Below the pieces are notes generated by a model. That model worked only from the letters and a program-made list of their open reading frames with translations. It was not told where the DNA came from and did no database searches. DNA of 64,000 nucleotides from Pseudomonadota bacterium (GTDB lineage Bacteria > Pseudomonadota > Alphaproteobacteria > UBA1280 > RI-95). Shown in pieces: positions 47,760-55,416 of the stretch. The stretch covers positions 1-64,000 of the forward strand of contig WGLU01000001.1 of the NCBI GenBank assembly GCA_016125375.1, in the 5' to 3' direction. Within the stretch, counting starts at the first letter, position 1. Each line of letters begins with the position of its first letter. Both the position numbers and the translations under genes were made by a program.

Positions 47760-49571
47760 ATGACCCTGATGACGACCTTGAAAAACCTTTCCAGCCGCCA
47801 GCAATTGACTCTGATTGCGGGAGTCAGCGTTGCGTCGCTGGCAGCTTCCGTCATGTCGGCTCCGGCGGGTAATCCAGAAGAATTGGTCCATCTGACAGTA
47901 TGGGCTGCCGGCGGCGCTATCGTGGTGAGCCTGATGGCGTATTTTGTCGCACGGATGAACAGTGCCAAAGAAGAGCAGGGACAGCTGGCACAATCTACGC
48001 TGATGGGTCTGGCGAATAACGTCCTGATTGCGGACAGCGATGACCGCCTGGTCTACTTGAACGAGGCATCTTCGAGCGCGTTGCGTGAGCTGGCTCCCGT
48101 AATTCGTGAAACTTTCCCCTCGTTTGACCCAGAAAAGCTTGTTGGTGCCTCTATCCATAACTTCCACAAAGACCCGGAGAAAATCCGTCGCCGTCTGCGC
48201 AGTCTGAAGGCAGGTGATCAGCACCGCACCCACATTACGCTGGGGCCTCTGACCCTGTCGCTGAACGTCGGCCCGATTTTTATGGGTAACAAGCGCATCG
48301 GTTCCTACGCTGAATGGTCCGATGTGACGCAGGCTATCGCACAGGAGCGCCAAGGCAATTTTATGCGCCAGTGCCTGACCAGCCTGAGCAACAACGTAAT
48401 GATTGCCGATGCAACAGACACCATTATCTACACCAACGAAGCCAGCATGAACGCTTTCCGTTCTCTGGCGGCGGAAATCCGCAAGACTTTCCCCAACTTT
48501 GATCCTGACAAGGTCATGGGCAGCAGCATCCACGTCTTCCATAAAGATCCGGAAATTGTAAAAGCCCGTTTGGCCGGTATGAAAGAAGGGCAAGTACACC
48601 GCACCCACATTGCCATTGGGGAATTGACCTTCAGCCTGAACGTAGGCGCCATCTTCGAGAATGGCAAAAAAATCGGCCACTACGCTGAGTGGATGGATGT
48701 AACCCACCAGATGCGCGAGAACAACCGCAAGAAGGAAGTTGAGCTGCGCGTGAACGAAGTCGCTTCCCGCATTAACGATGCGACGCGTGACATTGCCCAG
48801 GGCAACATGAATCTGTCCGAGCGTACAGAGGCGCAAGCGTCGTCTATCGAAGAAACAACAGCCACCATGCAGCAGGTGACCGAGCGTGTGAATGAAAACG
48901 CCGAAAACTCCCGCGAGGCGCTTAAAGTTGCCGGTGTGACCCGTGAGGCTGCTGATCGTGGCGGTCACGTGGTGCAGTCTGCCATTGCAGCGATGGGTGA
49001 AATCAGCAAGAGCTCGACCCAGATTTCCGAAATCATTGGCGTTATCGACGAAATCGCCTTCCAGACCAACCTGCTGGCGCTGAACGCGGCGGTAGAGGCG
49101 GCCCGCGCTGGCGAGCAAGGCCGAGGCTTTGCCGTGGTGGCGTCCGAAGTCCGTACGCTTGCCGGCCGTTCGGCCAAGGCTGCCAAGGAAATCAAAGACC
49201 TGATTACCGAAAGCGTTGCCAAGGTCAAAACCGGTATGGAGCAGGTGAACGAAACAGGGACTTGCCTGAACGACATCATCTCGAACGTGCAGAAAGTGAC
49301 CGACATGATTGGCGATATCGCCAACGCAAGCCAGGAACAGGCCCTGAGCATTTCGGAGATCAACAAGACGGTTGCACAGATGGACTCCTTCACCCAGCAG
49401 AACGCATCGCTGGTGGAAGAGGCGGCTGCCGCAAGCAAATCGCTGGAAGAGCAAGCCGCTGACCTGCTGGAACTGGTGCTGAACACCAAGGAAGCGCTGG
49501 AAGTTGTTGAGGCTGCAAACAAGGCAAACAGCCGTGGCGGCAAAGGCAAGAAGGAGCAGGCGCATGCCTAA
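47760..49571 (+). CDS. Methyl-accepting chemotaxis protein with two PAS domains
   Basis: A 603-residue receptor. Two membrane segments (about 16-33 and 43-64) are separated by only nine residues, so there is no periplasmic sensor. Two tandem PAS-type domains follow (about 78-190 and 200-310) with near-identical ending patterns (SYAEWSDVTQ and HYAEWMDVTH). The signalling domain (about 320-590) has the hairpin tip DEIAFQTNLLALNAAVEAAR. It should sense an intracellular signal such as redox state and control CheA. It heads the chemotaxis operon. Confidence 0.95.
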   Translation: MTLMTTLKNLSSRQQLTLIAGVSVASLAASVMSAPAGNPEELVHLTVWAAGGAIVVSLMAYFVARMNSAKEEQGQLAQSTLMGLANNVLIADSDDRLVYLNEASSSALRELAPVIRETFPSFDPEKLVGASIHNFHKDPEKIRRRLRSLKAGDQHRTHITLGPLTLSLNVGPIFMGNKRIGSYAEWSDVTQAIAQERQGNFMRQCLTSLSNNVMIADATDTIIYTNEASMNAFRSLAAEIRKTFPNFDPDKVMGSSIHVFHKDPEIVKARLAGMKEGQVHRTHIAIGELTFSLNVGAIFENGKKIGHYAEWMDVTHQMRENNRKKEVELRVNEVASRINDATRDIAQGNMNLSERTEAQASSIEETTATMQQVTERVNENAENSREALKVAGVTREAADRGGHVVQSAIAAMGEISKSSTQISEIIGVIDEIAFQTNLLALNAAVEAARAGEQGRGFAVVASEVRTLAGRSAKAAKEIKDLITESVAKVKTGMEQVNETGTCLNDIISNVQKVTDMIGDIANASQEQALSISEINKTVAQMDSFTQQNASLVEEAAAASKSLEEQAADLLELVLNTKEALEVVEAANKANSRGGKGKKEQAHA

Positions 49572-49842
49572 GAAAAAACCGCTCCTGCTGCCCGAAGTGC
49601 TGACGGCCTATCAGGTTGGAGAACTCAAACCCTTGCTCCAGAAAGCAGTGGCAAACGGGCAGCCGATTGATGGCGGTTCCGTTAGTCGGGTGGACACGCT
49701 TGGATGCCAACTGCTGGTCAGTCTGCATCACAGTCTTGAAGCTGTTGGCCAGACGGACTTGTTGCAGAACCTGTCGGCACCGTTGATGGCAGCGATGACA
49801 GAACTGGGGCTACACACCCTTTTTAGCGGAGATGCGGCATGA
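49564..49842 (+). CDS. STAS-domain protein
   Basis: A 92-residue protein with the STAS fold pattern [38 protein letters not shown] and [13 protein letters not shown] domains bind nucleotides or serve as phosphorylated switches. The usual target serine lies at or near SRVDT. A START within the end of the receptor gene (8-base overlap) with GGAGCAGG upstream supports 49564; a four-base overlap joins it to the next gene. Its role in this chemotaxis operon is not established. Confidence 0.85.
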
Positions 49843-50948
49843 AGGACCGACTGACAGACCTTAAGCCCTATCTGGTGCCTGCTGGTATTGCTGGCGGTGC
49901 GCTGGTCGCGGGGTTGGGGCTGGGGTTCCTGCCGTGGCAGCCGTTCGGGAGCACACTGGCTGTGCTTGCCGGGTTGGGATGCGGGTATCTGCTGCCCCGC
50001 TGGGTCGCTTTACCAGGTACGGCTTTGGAGGCTGTTCAAACCGATAATGCCGCACAAATGAAAGTGCTGGCCACGCTGTTGGAAGATGTTTCTGCCGACC
50101 TGGAAGGGACAATTGGCCATATTATCGGCCAATTCCTGGGGCTTGCGGATAAGGCGGGTGCACAGTCGCAGCTGCTGGCACAAACCGCTGCGGCGGCTGA
50201 TACGCTGGAAAGCGGCGGCAAGAATATGACGATGGATGAGTTCTCCCGCGATGTGGCCGGTCAGGTGCAGAGCATCGTCGGGACCATTCACTGGATTTGC
50301 GACAGTATGGAGAAGGTCAGTGGCGAGCTGGATACATTGCAGCACCATGCAGATACGGTGCGCGGCTTCATGGAAAAAATCGACTTTATTGCCAAGCAGA
50401 CCGACCTGCTGGCGCTGAATGCGGCGATTGAGGCCGCCCGTGCCGGCGATAACGGTCGCGGCTTTATGGTGGTTGCGGAAGAGGTGCGTAAACTGGCCAC
50501 CGAATCCGGCAAGTTCAGTGATGAAATCCGTCGTGAGATTGTGGCGATTACTGGCGGATTGGAACACTCATACGCCAGTGTACAGCAGGTTGTCGGTCAG
50601 GATATGTCGCCGCTGGACAGTGCAAAAGGCCGCATTGAAGAGATGGTGGGCCAGCTTATCGACCAAAAAACCGGGGTGCAGGTGTTGCTCCAGCAGGCGG
50701 GGCAGGATGTGGGCAAAATGTCCGGCAATATCTTCGCCATCGTGCAGGACTTGCAGTTTCAGGACCGCATCAAACAACGTCTGGAGCATGTCATCGAGCC
50801 GCTTAAGGGTATGACGGACGGTGAACGTATTCATGCCAGCTACACCATGAAAGAAGAACGCGAGGCCCACGCGCGGGCCGTGGCCGGCGAGGCACCGGCA
50901 CCGCAGATACCGGCTAAACCTCAAGACGATAACATAGACCTGTTTTAG
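49839..50948 (+). CDS. Receptor-like protein with a CheZ-type FQDxxxQ motif
   Basis: A 369-residue protein. Two closely spaced membrane segments (about 13-31 and 36-53) precede a helical region and a receptor signalling tip ([20 protein letters not shown] and following, about 177-220). Past the tip, FQDRIKQ at 307-313 matches the FQDxxxQ active site of the CheY-P phosphatase CheZ (D143, Q147 in E. coli). The last residues, PQDDNIDLF, resemble the acidic-hydrophobic CheZ tail that grips CheY. It sits directly before cheY. A phosphatase role is an inference from these two motifs. Confidence 0.8.
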
Positions 50949-50964: not shown

Positions 50965-51336
50965 ATGAGTAAGACGATTTTGACAGTGGATGATTCGGCC
51001 TCCATCCGCCAGATGGTGACGTTCACCCTCAAACAGGCGGGCTATACGGTGGTTGAGGCTGATGATGGCAGCAAAGGGTTGGAAGTGGCAAAGTCCGTTG
51101 GGGATATTGCCCTTGTTTTGACCGACTTGAACATGCCGAACATGAATGGTCTGGAGCTTATCCGTAACCTCCGTCAATTACCTGCCTTCAAGTTTACGCC
51201 GATTTTGATGCTGACGACCGAGTCGGACGAAACAAAGAAGATGGAAGGTAAGCAAGCAGGCGCAACAGGCTGGATTGTAAAGCCTTTCAATCCGGAGCAA
51301 CTGCTCAAGGTTATTGAAAAAGTCATCCCTGCGTAA
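50965..51336 (+). CDS. cheY: Chemotaxis response regulator CheY
   Basis: A 123-residue receiver domain. The acid pocket is D9 and D10, the phosphoacceptor D54 in LVLTDLNMP, the switch threonines are in LMLTTES and the lysine is in IVKPFN. Phosphorylated CheY binds the flagellar motor or another target. GGAAAGG precedes the start. The next gene, cheA, is its kinase. Confidence 0.96.
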   Translation: MSKTILTVDDSASIRQMVTFTLKQAGYTVVEADDGSKGLEVAKSVGDIALVLTDLNMPNMNGLELIRNLRQLPAFKFTPILMLTTESDETKKMEGKQAGATGWIVKPFNPEQLLKVIEKVIPA

Positions 51337-51347
51337 GGAGCGCCCCC

Positions 51348-53414
51348 ATGTCCATCGACATGTCCCAATTTCACCAGACCTATCTGGAAGAAGCCGTAGA
51401 AAACCTTGCCGAACTCGAAAACGGTCTGCTTGCGCTGGAACGTGATGGCAATGCCGACCTGAATGCCATCTTCCGTGCGGCGCACTCGATTAAAGGCGGT
51501 GCGGCAACTTTTGGGTTTCAGGATATTGCAGACTTCACCCACGGGGTGGAAACTGTTCTCGACAAAGGACGCGATCTGACACTGGACCTGAGCGCAGAGG
51601 TGACAGCTGTTCTGTTGCGGGCCGTTGACGTTTTGGGTGAGTTGATTACCGCCGCGCGGGAAAATCGCAAGGCTACGGCAAATGACCGCCTTGCGTGTCA
51701 GCAGGCTCTGACCGATATTTGCGGCGATGGTACACCTAAAGCGGCCTCTGCCCGTAAAGAAGGCACCGGCGGGCATAAGATGATGAACATCACCTTTAAG
51801 CCGCATCCGGATTTGCCCAAAACCGGGTCAGACCCCCTCAATATCCTGCGGGAGTTGGGGCGGCTGGGGGAGATGACACTGACAGCATTCCCCGAGAGTG
51901 TGCCGACTCTGGAAGAACTGGAGGTCGAAAATCTGTTCCTCTGGTGGGAGGCAACGCTGGAAACAGAGCACACGGTAGACGATGTGCATGATGTGTTCCT
52001 GTTTGTGACCGACGAGGCCGAGATTACCGTACAGGTGGTCGCTGCTATTGATGCGGCCCCTCAGGCGCAGCCTGTCGAGCAAACACTTGTGGCGGAACCA
52101 ATGACAGACCGCCGCGCACCCGAGAATGAACGCCGTGCCGGCAACGACCGCAGACAGCCGGAAAAAGCTCCGGAAACGGCCTTTATCCGTGTGGCAACGG
52201 ACAAGGTGGATAACCTCATTAACCTGGTCGGGGAGCTGGTGACCACTCACGCAATGGTCAGCCAGCACAGCAGCCGGGTAGATGCTGACGGGCATCCCAT
52301 GCTCCACAGTTCGGTGCAGGAAATGGCGCACCATACACGCACGCTGCAAGAGGCAATTATGGCCATCCGTATGATGCCCATCAGTTTTGCCTTCAGCCGC
52401 TTTCCGCGGATGGTGCGGGATACTGCGACCAAGCTTGGTAAACAGGTGTCGCTGGTAACGCACGGTGACCAGACGGAACTGGATAAAACAGTCATCGAGC
52501 GTATTGCCGACCCGCTGACGCACCTTGTCCGCAATGCGATTGACCACGGCATAGAGATACCGGAAGAACGCAAAGCCCACGGCAAACCTGCCGAAGCGAC
52601 GGTAGAGCTCGCCGCTTATTACCGTGGCGGCAACGTGATGATTGAGGTACGTGACGATGGGCGCGGCTTGGACCGGGATAAGCTCATGAAAAAGGCCACG
52701 GAAAAGGGGCTGGCACAGGAAGGGGAAACCTACACGGACGAGCAGGTGTATCAGTTTATCTTCCACCCCGGTTTCTCTACAGCTGCGCAGGTGACGGATG
52801 TGTCCGGCCGTGGTGTGGGGATGGATATTGTGCGCAAGAACATTCAGTCGCTTGGGGGTAATATCTCCATCGAAACCGAGAAGCACAAAGGCACGCGCTT
52901 TATCATCAGTCTGCCGCTGACACTGGCGATTGTGGACGGTATGGCCATCCGTTCCGGGGACGAGGTGTATATCGTCCCGATTCTGAACATTATGGAGTCC
53001 ATCAAGCCGACAAAAGGGCAGGTTAAAACTGTCGGGCACAATGCAGAGGTGATGGATATTCGCGGCAGTTACATCCCGTTTGTGCGCCTGTCGGAAGTCT
53101 TTAAAACCGAAATGGGTGACGGCTCGACCCGCCCCGAAGACGGTATTGCCATGATTGTGGAGTCCGACCACGAGCGGATAGCCCTGTTTGTGGATGAACT
53201 GCTGGGCGAACGTCAGGTCGTCATCAAGAGCATCGAGGCAAACTACCGCGCTATAGAAGGTGTATCCGGCGCTACGATTCTGGGTGATGGCCGCGTGTCG
53301 TTCATCATCGACCTTGCAGGCATCATCAAACGGGCAAACCGCGAAGGTCTGCACCACGCACCCGTTAAACCAAATAAATCCAAAATGACCGAGGAGGGGC
53401 ATCATGTCGTCTAA
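51348..53414 (+). CDS. cheA: Chemotaxis histidine kinase CheA
   Basis: A 688-residue kinase. The HPt domain carries the phosphorylated H46 in FRAAHSIKGGAATFG. A middle segment (about 120-270), possibly a poorly conserved P2, precedes the dimerisation helices (ATDKVDNLINLVGEL), the ATPase with N box HLVRNAIDHGIE, G1 EVRDDGRGLD and G2 GRGVGMDIVRKN, and the C-terminal CheW-like domain. It autophosphorylates under receptor control and passes phosphate to CheY. Its end overlaps cheW by 11 bases. Confidence 0.97.
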   Translation: MSIDMSQFHQTYLEEAVENLAELENGLLALERDGNADLNAIFRAAHSIKGGAATFGFQDIADFTHGVETVLDKGRDLTLDLSAEVTAVLLRAVDVLGELITAARENRKATANDRLACQQALTDICGDGTPKAASARKEGTGGHKMMNITFKPHPDLPKTGSDPLNILRELGRLGEMTLTAFPESVPTLEELEVENLFLWWEATLETEHTVDDVHDVFLFVTDEAEITVQVVAAIDAAPQAQPVEQTLVAEPMTDRRAPENERRAGNDRRQPEKAPETAFIRVATDKVDNLINLVGELVTTHAMVSQHSSRVDADGHPMLHSSVQEMAHHTRTLQEAIMAIRMMPISFAFSRFPRMVRDTATKLGKQVSLVTHGDQTELDKTVIERIADPLTHLVRNAIDHGIEIPEERKAHGKPAEATVELAAYYRGGNVMIEVRDDGRGLDRDKLMKKATEKGLAQEGETYTDEQVYQFIFHPGFSTAAQVTDVSGRGVGMDIVRKNIQSLGGNISIETEKHKGTRFIISLPLTLAIVDGMAIRSGDEVYIVPILNIMESIKPTKGQVKTVGHNAEVMDIRGSYIPFVRLSEVFKTEMGDGSTRPEDGIAMIVESDHERIALFVDELLGERQVVIKSIEANYRAIEGVSGATILGDGRVSFIIDLAGIIKRANREGLHHAPVKPNKSKMTEEGHHVV

Positions 53415-53958
53415 GAATGCTGTTGTGGCTTTGGAAGGCCAGAAGAACGCGCAGGCTGGCGGGCATGCCCTGACAGAACCGGGGATGGATGACCAGTACC
53501 TCACGTTCACCCTTGCAGACGAACTGTACGGCGTGGACATCCTCAAGGTGCAGGAAATCCGCGGCTGGAGCGGTGTCACCCAAATACCGAACTGCCCGCC
53601 GTATATCCGTGGTGTGGTCAACTTGCGTGGCGCCATTGTGCCGATTCTGGATATGCGTCGCCGCTTTGCCATGGAAGAGACGCCCTTTACACCCTACACG
53701 GTGGTGATTGTGGTGAACGTGCAGGGGCGCACTGTTGGCCTTGTTGTGGACGCTGTATCGGACGTGGTGAACCTGAAGGAAGATGACCTGCGCCCACCGC
53801 CTGATTTTGGCACGGCCATCGACAATACCTATCTGCGTGCGCTGGCCCAGATTGGTGAGGATATGGTGATTCTTCTGAACGTGGATGACATGCTGCGCAG
53901 TAGCGAGTTATTGGCTGTGGATAAAATCCGCCAGACGGGGAGTGAAACCCATGCCTGA
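53404..53958 (+). CDS. cheW: Chemotaxis coupling protein CheW
   Basis: A 184-residue CheW domain protein: LTFTLADELYGVDILKVQEIRG, PPYIRGVVNLRGAIVPILDMRRRF and VDAVSDVV are the family segments. It links receptors to CheA. A 30-residue N-terminal extension precedes the domain. The start overlaps the end of cheA, with GAGGAGGGG as ribosome binding site, and its end overlaps cheR by eight bases. Confidence 0.96.
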   Translation: MSSKNAVVALEGQKNAQAGGHALTEPGMDDQYLTFTLADELYGVDILKVQEIRGWSGVTQIPNCPPYIRGVVNLRGAIVPILDMRRRFAMEETPFTPYTVVIVVNVQGRTVGLVVDAVSDVVNLKEDDLRPPPDFGTAIDNTYLRALAQIGEDMVILLNVDDMLRSSELLAVDKIRQTGSETHA

Positions 53959-54811
53959 GCAGAGCGCACTGCTGGAGCAGATGGAGTTCCCGTTCAGTGA
54001 CAGTGACTTTGAACAGCTCAGTCTGCTGATTACAAAGCGGACGGGCATTGAACTGCCATCCCATAAAAAGGCGCTTGTTTATGGTCGCCTAGCGCGGCGT
54101 TTGCGGGCCCTTGGATTAAAAGATTTTACCTCATACATCAAAATGATGGATGATAAAATTAAACAAGGAAATGAAGAAGAGTTGATTACAGCTATTCAAG
54201 CTGTCACAACCAACGTCACCTCCTTTTTCCGGGAGTCCCACCACTTTGATGTGCTGCGGGAGGCGCTCCCTAAAATGCTGGCCGAGCATGGCGAGGTGCG
54301 CATCTGGAGCAGTGCCTGTTCCACAGGAGAAGAACCCTGGTCCATTGCCATGGTTGTTGCCGAGTTTTGTAAGAACAACCCTGATGCAAAGGTTAGTATT
54401 CTTGCCAGTGATATTGATAACGCGGCAATCGCCAAGGCACAGAAAGGTAGCTATACCCTGCGGCCGGAAGAGCTGAAAGTACACCCTCTGATGGGTAAGT
54501 ATCTCAAAGATACAGGTCCGGCACGTATGCCGCATGAGCGGACGTACAGCATAGACCAGAACCTGCGCCCTTATGTGCAATTCAAACAGCTCAACCTGAT
54601 AGAAGACTGGCGCCTGCCCAAAGCGGCGCATATCGTCTTCTGCCGCAACGTTATCATCTACTTCGGCAGAGAAACTAAAACCGGTATTTTTGAACGGATG
54701 AACCGCAGTATGGTCAGCGGCGGTTTGCTGTGTATCGGCCACTCGGAGACTTTGCTCGGCATTAGCAGCGCCTACAAGCTGATTGGCCGCACCACGTACC
54801 AGAAAGTCTAA
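53951..54811 (+). CDS. cheR: Chemotaxis protein methyltransferase CheR
   Basis: A 286-residue enzyme that methylates receptor glutamates with SAM. The N-terminal helical domain (LITKRTGIELPSHKK) is followed by TTNVTSFFRESHHF and the SAM motif IWSSACSTGEEPWSIAM, then FCRNVIIYF and GLLCIGHSE. The start MPEQSAL at 53951 lies within the last codons of cheW. No cheB gene accompanies it in this operon. Confidence 0.96.
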   Translation: MPEQSALLEQMEFPFSDSDFEQLSLLITKRTGIELPSHKKALVYGRLARRLRALGLKDFTSYIKMMDDKIKQGNEEELITAIQAVTTNVTSFFRESHHFDVLREALPKMLAEHGEVRIWSSACSTGEEPWSIAMVVAEFCKNNPDAKVSILASDIDNAAIAKAQKGSYTLRPEELKVHPLMGKYLKDTGPARMPHERTYSIDQNLRPYVQFKQLNLIEDWRLPKAAHIVFCRNVIIYFGRETKTGIFERMNRSMVSGGLLCIGHSETLLGISSAYKLIGRTTYQKV

Positions 54812-54813
54812 CA

Positions 54814-55413
54814 ATGGGCGACAGTTTTTCCCGGAAGGGTCAGAACAGGTATCTGGACCCCTACGTTAACCGTTGGACGACCAAAATCCTGCCCGGCGAG
54901 TACGCAGTGACGGCTGAGGATGAACTCATCGTTACAGCCGTGGGGTCATGCATTGCTGCGTGCATTCACGACACGGTAACTGGGATTGGCGGCATGAACC
55001 ACTTTATGCTGCCCAGTTCGACAGGCGGGGATTGGGCGGGACAGAACGCTGCTGCCCGTTATGGTAACTTTGCGATGGAGTTCCTGATTAACGAGATTTT
55101 GAAGCAGGGTGGCAAAAAAACCAATCTGGTCGCCAAAATTTTTGGTGGCGGGACCATGATGCCCGCACAGCTCCAGATTGGTGAAATGAATGCGGCTTTT
55201 GCACGTGAATACCTCCAGACCGAGAAGATTCCCATCCTGGCCGAAGATGTTGGGCAGGGGTATTCCCGCAAGGTATATTTTCACCCCAAGAGCGGCGCGG
55301 TAACCATGAAGAAGCTGATGGTGCTCGCCAACGATACCATTCCTAGGCGCGAGGCCGACTATGGCAAGGTGCTGTCCGATATGCCGCTGGACGGCGAGGT
55401 GGAGCTGTTTTAG
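54814..55413 (+). CDS. cheD: Chemoreceptor glutamine deamidase CheD
   Basis: A 199-residue CheD. The catalytic cysteine is C46 in VGSCIAACIHD and the histidine is H63 in GGMNHFMLP, with the same 17-residue spacing as Thermotoga CheD. FGGGTMM is the third conserved segment. It deamidates receptor glutamines and in some species works with CheC. No cheC is present here. It starts two bases after cheR and ends the operon. Confidence 0.95.
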   Translation: MGDSFSRKGQNRYLDPYVNRWTTKILPGEYAVTAEDELIVTAVGSCIAACIHDTVTGIGGMNHFMLPSSTGGDWAGQNAAARYGNFAMEFLINEILKQGGKKTNLVAKIFGGGTMMPAQLQIGEMNAAFAREYLQTEKIPILAEDVGQGYSRKVYFHPKSGAVTMKKLMVLANDTIPRREADYGKVLSDMPLDGEVELF

Positions 55414-55416
55414 CCG

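Follow-up and report, generated by a model that had tools for sequence, protein, structure and literature searches.

The window, i.e., the whole 64,000-nucleotide stretch of alphaproteobacterial DNA that was analyzed, carries on its forward strand a chemotaxis operon with the order receptor, STAS-domain gene, 369-residue receptor, cheY, cheA, cheW, cheR, and cheD. The STAS gene and the gene of the 369-residue receptor share a 4-base overlap at the receptor start. The features are as follows.

47760..49571, +: upstream chemoreceptor, PAS-PAS-MCPsignal, the operon's first gene as read (Pfam MCPsignal, E 1.2e-53)
49564..49842, +: STAS-domain protein in a CheS-like position, start codon inferred from the overlap (Pfam STAS_2, E 3.3e-8)
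49839..50948, +: receptor-like protein with a CheZ-like motif, 369 residues, ATG start (ORF reading, Pfam, alignment)
49872..50006, +: hydrophobic membrane hairpin, residues ~12-56 (hydropathy)
50133..50135, +: conserved Phe99 (invariant in a 25-member alignment, present in 96% of 51 nonredundant members)
50379..50495, +: receptor kinase-control tip, residues 181-219 (MCPsignal match, conserved columns)
50754..50777, +: QFQDRIKQ, residues 306-313, CheZ-like DxxxQ motif (invariant Q306, Q308, D309, and Q313; aligned on CheZ FQDxTGQ)
50841..50861, +: YTMKEER, residues 335-341, second conserved block, also found in short stand-alone relatives
50931..50945, +: NIDLF C-terminal tail (53 of 56 members but none of 101 other receptors end in [IVLT]x[LFM]F)
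50965..51336, +: cheY, the proposed substrate (ORF reading, alignment)
51348..53414, +: cheA (ORF reading, homologue matches)
53404..53958, +: cheW (ORF reading, homologue matches)
53951..54811, +: cheR, inferred to start at the ORF's second Met (ORF reading, homologue matches)
54814..55413, +: cheD, with the C-terminal end GEVELF (Pfam CheD, E 3.6e-33; tail comparison)

The initial annotation had placed the receptor gene directly before cheY, which is indeed the next gene after the receptor ORF, in an operon lacking cheZ, cheC, and cheX. ORF and Pfam readings of the operon detected none of these three genes, but the statement does not extend to the genome, because a canonical CheZ is encoded on another contig (L003:5898-6608). 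This protein carries the motif NFQDVTGQ, which falls on D143/Q147 in an alignment with E. coli CheZ (1KMI), and its gene lies in a fliM-cheY-cheZ-cheB-cheA-mot cluster together with flagellar genes. Most relatives of the window operon have a cheB following cheD, which is missing here (position 55414 onward); the flagellar cluster of the same genome does encode a CheB (L003:6627-7745).

Both FQDRIKQ (residues 307-313) and the terminal PQDDNIDLF are present in the translated ORF, and the earlier description of a two-helix membrane anchor plus signaling tip agrees with the hydrophobic hairpin and with a match to MCPsignal (PF00015) at residues 156-263 (E 2.6e-28), the sole domain above the cutoff. 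The hairpin is found in 30 of 56 family members and is missing from about half. Phe99 lies on the opposite arm at approximately the same distance from the tip as the motif and probably faces it in the receptor hairpin. AlphaFold (AF2) monomer models computed from four sequences and from one were of low confidence (pLDDT 52 and 63) and did not place the exposure of the motif in a helical bundle. A fold search matched receptors only and no CheZ, as expected of a long helical hairpin.

A conserved motif in McpA-type receptors

Relatives were collected by protein and profile searches and then read together with their gene neighborhoods. A set of 25 members was chosen by profile and neighborhood without the motif as a criterion, and all 25 keep Q306, Q308, D309, and Q313. 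Outside the tip, the invariant columns of this alignment are F99, D255, Q306, Q308, D309, Q313, and F369. Two further sets, one of 56 members and one of 51 nonredundant members (median pairwise identity of 23%), were selected with the motif pattern, so that the 100% conservation of Q, D, and Q in them is by construction; among the 51, only M1, F99, QFQD, Q313, and F369 exceed 90% outside the tip. The aspartate and the glutamine are retained even in divergent members, e.g., as QVQDRAKQ (L159), QFEDIVRQ (L208), and QFTDIIVQ in Vibrio (L216), and also in a short protein with QSEDALVQ (L220). In the 101 other chemoreceptor ORFs of the examined DNA, neither FQDxxxQ nor the C-terminal tail was found. 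The Q-F-x-D-x-x-x-Q core is, as judged from these alignments, a feature of the family and not a product of chance. A tandem receptor duplication of 696 residues (L106:7098-9188) has lost the QFQD motif from its second copy, and a receptor-like protein of another che cluster (L138:1153-2274), with QIHDITRQ, is a possible divergent member.

In alphaproteobacteria and Vibrio, the motif gene also occurs in the order cheY-cheA-cheW-receptor (WxxF)-cheR-cheD-cheB-motif gene-receiver/PP2C, accompanied by STAS genes, which is the published stage 1 F7 order of McpA-like receptors (Ortega 2020, PMC7184735). A Pseudomonas-type cluster (L207), with an Aer2 closely similar to that of P. aeruginosa (3VOL), has a receptor with QFQDMSSQ and the end EVELF directly before cheY, and the syntenic Vibrio receptor with QFTDIIVQ ends in GEVELF. 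On the basis of gene order, the family can thus be assigned to the McpA/CttP-type receptors of F7 systems; the sequence comparison with this class relies on the syntenic Pseudomonas and Vibrio receptors. The window receptor lacks an x-[HFYW]-x2-[HFYW] pentapeptide, has the conserved C terminus NIDLF, and sits in an F7-type che cluster with cheD. According to the published analysis, McpA-like receptors (P. aeruginosa McpA/CttP PA0180, V. cholerae VCA1088) likewise belong to an F7 cluster and have a membrane segment, no WxxF pentapeptide, and a conserved C terminus with Val or Ile second among the last five residues, PA0180 having Val at the matching tail position (PMC7184735). The window receptor differs in being alphaproteobacterial, in lying directly before cheY, and in the absence of cheB from its operon. 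The initial annotation considered that a receptor also dephosphorylating CheY-P at the array would be an unusual architecture; the combination of receptor and CheZ-like motif, however, marks a widespread class and recurs in dozens of distantly related receptors.

The published analysis described the conserved C terminus of McpA as important but of unclear role and reported cheY without cheZ in the F7 clusters of both stage 1 and stage 2 (PMC7184735). In the searchable open literature, subscription papers aside, nothing was found on a motif of the CheZ type in McpA-type receptors. A comparable system is CheT of S. meliloti, a DXXXQ CheY phosphatase from an F7 operon with the STAS protein CheS and CheD (Agbekudzi 2024, as described in PMC12654446). 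CheT shares the motif and the operon context with the window receptor, but it is a small, separate, CheR-binding protein without a receptor part. A small Phaeobacter protein was considered as CheT-like and dismissed, since its FYDELGK lacks the glutamine.

Methylation zone, C-terminal tail, and receptor-less forms

In 50 of the 56 members, the motif aspartate follows the tip NA at a distance of exactly 115 residues. Other receptors show maxima of C-terminal methylation sites at +104, +111, and +118, with a second group at +76/+77, and a strict methylation consensus is present in 82 of 101 of them versus 3 of 56 family members. The location in the adaptation zone combined with the near loss of the methylation consensus indicates that the motif replaces the adaptation helix.

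The tail of the receptor had initially been read as the CheZ tail that binds CheY. The tail is similarly acidic, but it is not evidence for CheZ in particular: CheD ends in the IELF/VELF motif of the receptor (within its last few residues) in most operons with such a receptor tail, and the CheZ tails (QDDIDALF, QAEIDKLL) have one residue more between the hydrophobic positions (I-D-A-L-F/L versus I-x-L-F). In the gamma operon L213, both CheD and the receptor have a [ST]FF tail. The use of the tail as proof of CheY binding was dropped, given that CheD carries it too, including that of Paroceanicella, in whose examined stretch no QFxDxxxQ protein was found. A tail common to CheD and receptor would rather be a docking signal for a common partner, for which CheY is one candidate. 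The CheD proteins with ends mostly of the [IV][ED]LF type are those of the window (54814-55413) and of L100-L106, L146-L161, L201, L202, L207, L208, and L216.

The motif region also occurs without a receptor. Proteins of 150 to 180 residues that lack the tip but have motif and tail are encoded directly before F7-type cheY genes (L201, L202, and L220), with the motif as QFQDxxxQ or as degenerate QxxDxxxQ; a further short form (L188) comes from an alphaproteobacterium. For L188, L201, and L202, the match to the receptor family has a probability of 98.6%, and the weaker one to CheZ has 54.7%. Longer and shorter coiled-coil proteins outside recognizable operons combine QFYD[KR]L[TS]Q or QFDDITAQ with YTMxxER and DDIELF, and stand-alone proteins of ~190 residues match the receptor family with 98% and show no direct match to CheZ. 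The QFQD region can thus be regarded as a module that also exists apart from the receptor.

Among the proteins outside a recognizable che cluster, five of ~190 to 220 residues (L196:9198-9767, L197:9143-9748, L198:9559-10143, L199:5106-5681, and L200:9306-9980) combine QFYD[KR]L[TS]Q with a block resembling YTMEEER and with DDIELF; they belong to no Pfam family and are possible free response-regulator phosphatases. Coiled-coil proteins of 570 to 600 residues (L204:864-2582, L205:3272-5059, and L206:5645-7411) carry Q[FY]DDI[TS][AS]Q and YTMxSER and end in DDIELF or DLDIELF.

Relation to CheZ

The initial annotation had identified FQDRIKQ as a CheZ-type active-site motif and had foreseen a profile comparison, which aligned the motif, kept throughout the family, on D143/Q147 of CheZ. 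The family profile matched the canonical CheZ profile with a probability of 95.5% (E 1.4e-8), motif on motif. With the motif masked in one or both profiles, the match persisted at 82% and 88%, and with motif and flanks masked it fell to 34%. Two hundred column-shuffled CheZ profiles scored at most 23, compared with 58.6 for the real match, and ordinary receptors of the same operons reached 17.8% and 4% against the CheZ profile. The single sequence of the window protein reached 33% only and has no match to Pfam CheZ (PF04344), but this model gave sub-cutoff matches to relatives, i.e., G453 (E 2.4e-5), G496 (twice, E 7e-4), and the short form L188 (E 2e-4). In the reverse direction, the family profile detected in the window's genome only the gene at 49839-50948 and the CheZ of the genome (E 3.5e-5). 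Weak matches examined from a class-wide search with the same profile were CheZ proteins with [NS]FQDITGQ, except for one divergent receptor-like protein.

The window receptor shares with CheZ (PF04344; 1KMI) the FQDxxxQ corresponding to D143/Q147, resemblance in the regions flanking this motif, and a similar acidic hydrophobic tail. It differs in the fusion of the motif to a receptor tip, in a tail spacing that is one residue shorter, in the failure of the Pfam model to reach it, and in the residue after the motif aspartate, which is Arg in the window protein and most family members and Leu, Ile, or Val in CheZ. A CheZ study of 2020 described a conserved AXXFQ beside DXXXQ (PMC7750401), and the FQ part of this element is common to the receptor family.

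The CheY of the operon (50965-51336) has D/E where E. coli CheY has K91/K92, and the CheZ-linked CheY of the same genome (L003:5494-5880) has K/K. The F7-type CheYs examined are without Lys at 91 and 92, whereas three CheZ-linked CheYs have K91. A charge swap between R310 and CheY 91/92 was considered and set aside, as the pattern may reflect lineage alone: the L147 operon has Leu instead of Arg and the same type of CheY. Complete operons contain an F7-type cheY without adjacent cheZ, with the exception of genomes that have a separate cheY-cheZ pair. However, every genome checked encodes a canonical CheZ (the window's own and 14 of 14 others), and B. glumae has an F7-type cheY with no QFxDxxxQ-type protein upstream, so that the necessity of the receptor motif is unproven.

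Putative phosphatase function and its alternatives

With a probability of about 0.6, we propose on the basis of these sequence comparisons that McpA-type receptors with a CheZ-like site have real CheY-P phosphatase activity serving the F7 CheY. From the same material we infer catalysis, substrate, array membership, and a tail partner. The intact tip would allow the receptor to join the CheA-CheW array, and a CheZ-like helix would take the place of the methylation region within its C-terminal helix. D309 and Q313 would act like D143 and Q147 of CheZ, the aspartate orienting the bound CheY-P and the glutamine positioning the attacking water, and the CheY-P of the operon would be dephosphorylated at the array. 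The x-[IV]-[DE]-L-F tail would serve as a docking peptide for a partner shared with CheD, possibly CheY. CheA3 of Rhodobacter sphaeroides is a bifunctional kinase-phosphatase (cf. PMC2924250); compared by description, it provides a precedent for phosphatase activity within a protein of the signaling complex, although it is a kinase rather than a receptor.

An unlikely alternative is that the CheZ-like surface only binds, but does not hydrolyze, CheY or CheY-P and serves as a docking site or a sink holding CheY near the array. Mere binding would suffice to account for the CheZ-like profile, the adjacency of cheY, and the conserved docking tail, but the most divergent members (L159, Vibrio, and L220) keep exactly the catalytic D and Q, which goes beyond the needs of binding. 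Even less probable is a phosphatase acting on another receiver, namely, that of the receiver-PP2C (SpoIIE) partner-switching output encoded downstream in many alphaproteobacterial operons and in Vibrio. A REC-SpoIIE protein does follow the motif gene in L146 and L102, as does a protein with a receiver-like start in Vibrio; operons of the window type, however, keep the motif beside cheY, and the short stand-alone forms are also encoded directly before cheY.

We consider it just as improbable that QFxDxxxQ is a structural or adaptation element, e.g., a coiled-coil irregularity or a contact for CheD, CheB, or CheR, with no phosphatase role. Its position in the adaptation zone, the tail in common with CheD, and the irregular 3-3-4 hydrophobic spacing at the motif would fit such an element, which leaves unexplained why the match to CheZ extends beyond the motif and why receptor-less proteins keep it. 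Since the motif has just four fixed letters, its fortuitous occurrence in an ordinary receptor was also considered, but this is hardly credible in view of its retention in all 25 profile-selected members and in 51 nonredundant proteins with a median identity of 23%, as opposed to none of the 101 other receptors.

A common ancestry of CheZ and McpA-type receptors is a speculative scenario that we regard as rather doubtful: the phosphatase site would have arisen in a receptor-like hairpin, loss of the tip would have given rise to free CheZ-like phosphatases, and the short QFQD proteins would be surviving intermediates.

The cluster of an F7 system that includes an McpA-like receptor encodes a CheY of its own but lacks CheZ, and the published analysis gave no explanation for the function of these systems or for the striking conservation of the McpA C terminus (PMC7184735). 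If our main proposal is correct, the phosphatase site in the McpA C terminus would supply their missing signal-termination step, and it would explain why the receptor gene is kept with the cluster even though array formation does not require this receptor. One and the same receptor would then both belong to the kinase array and remove the product of the kinase.
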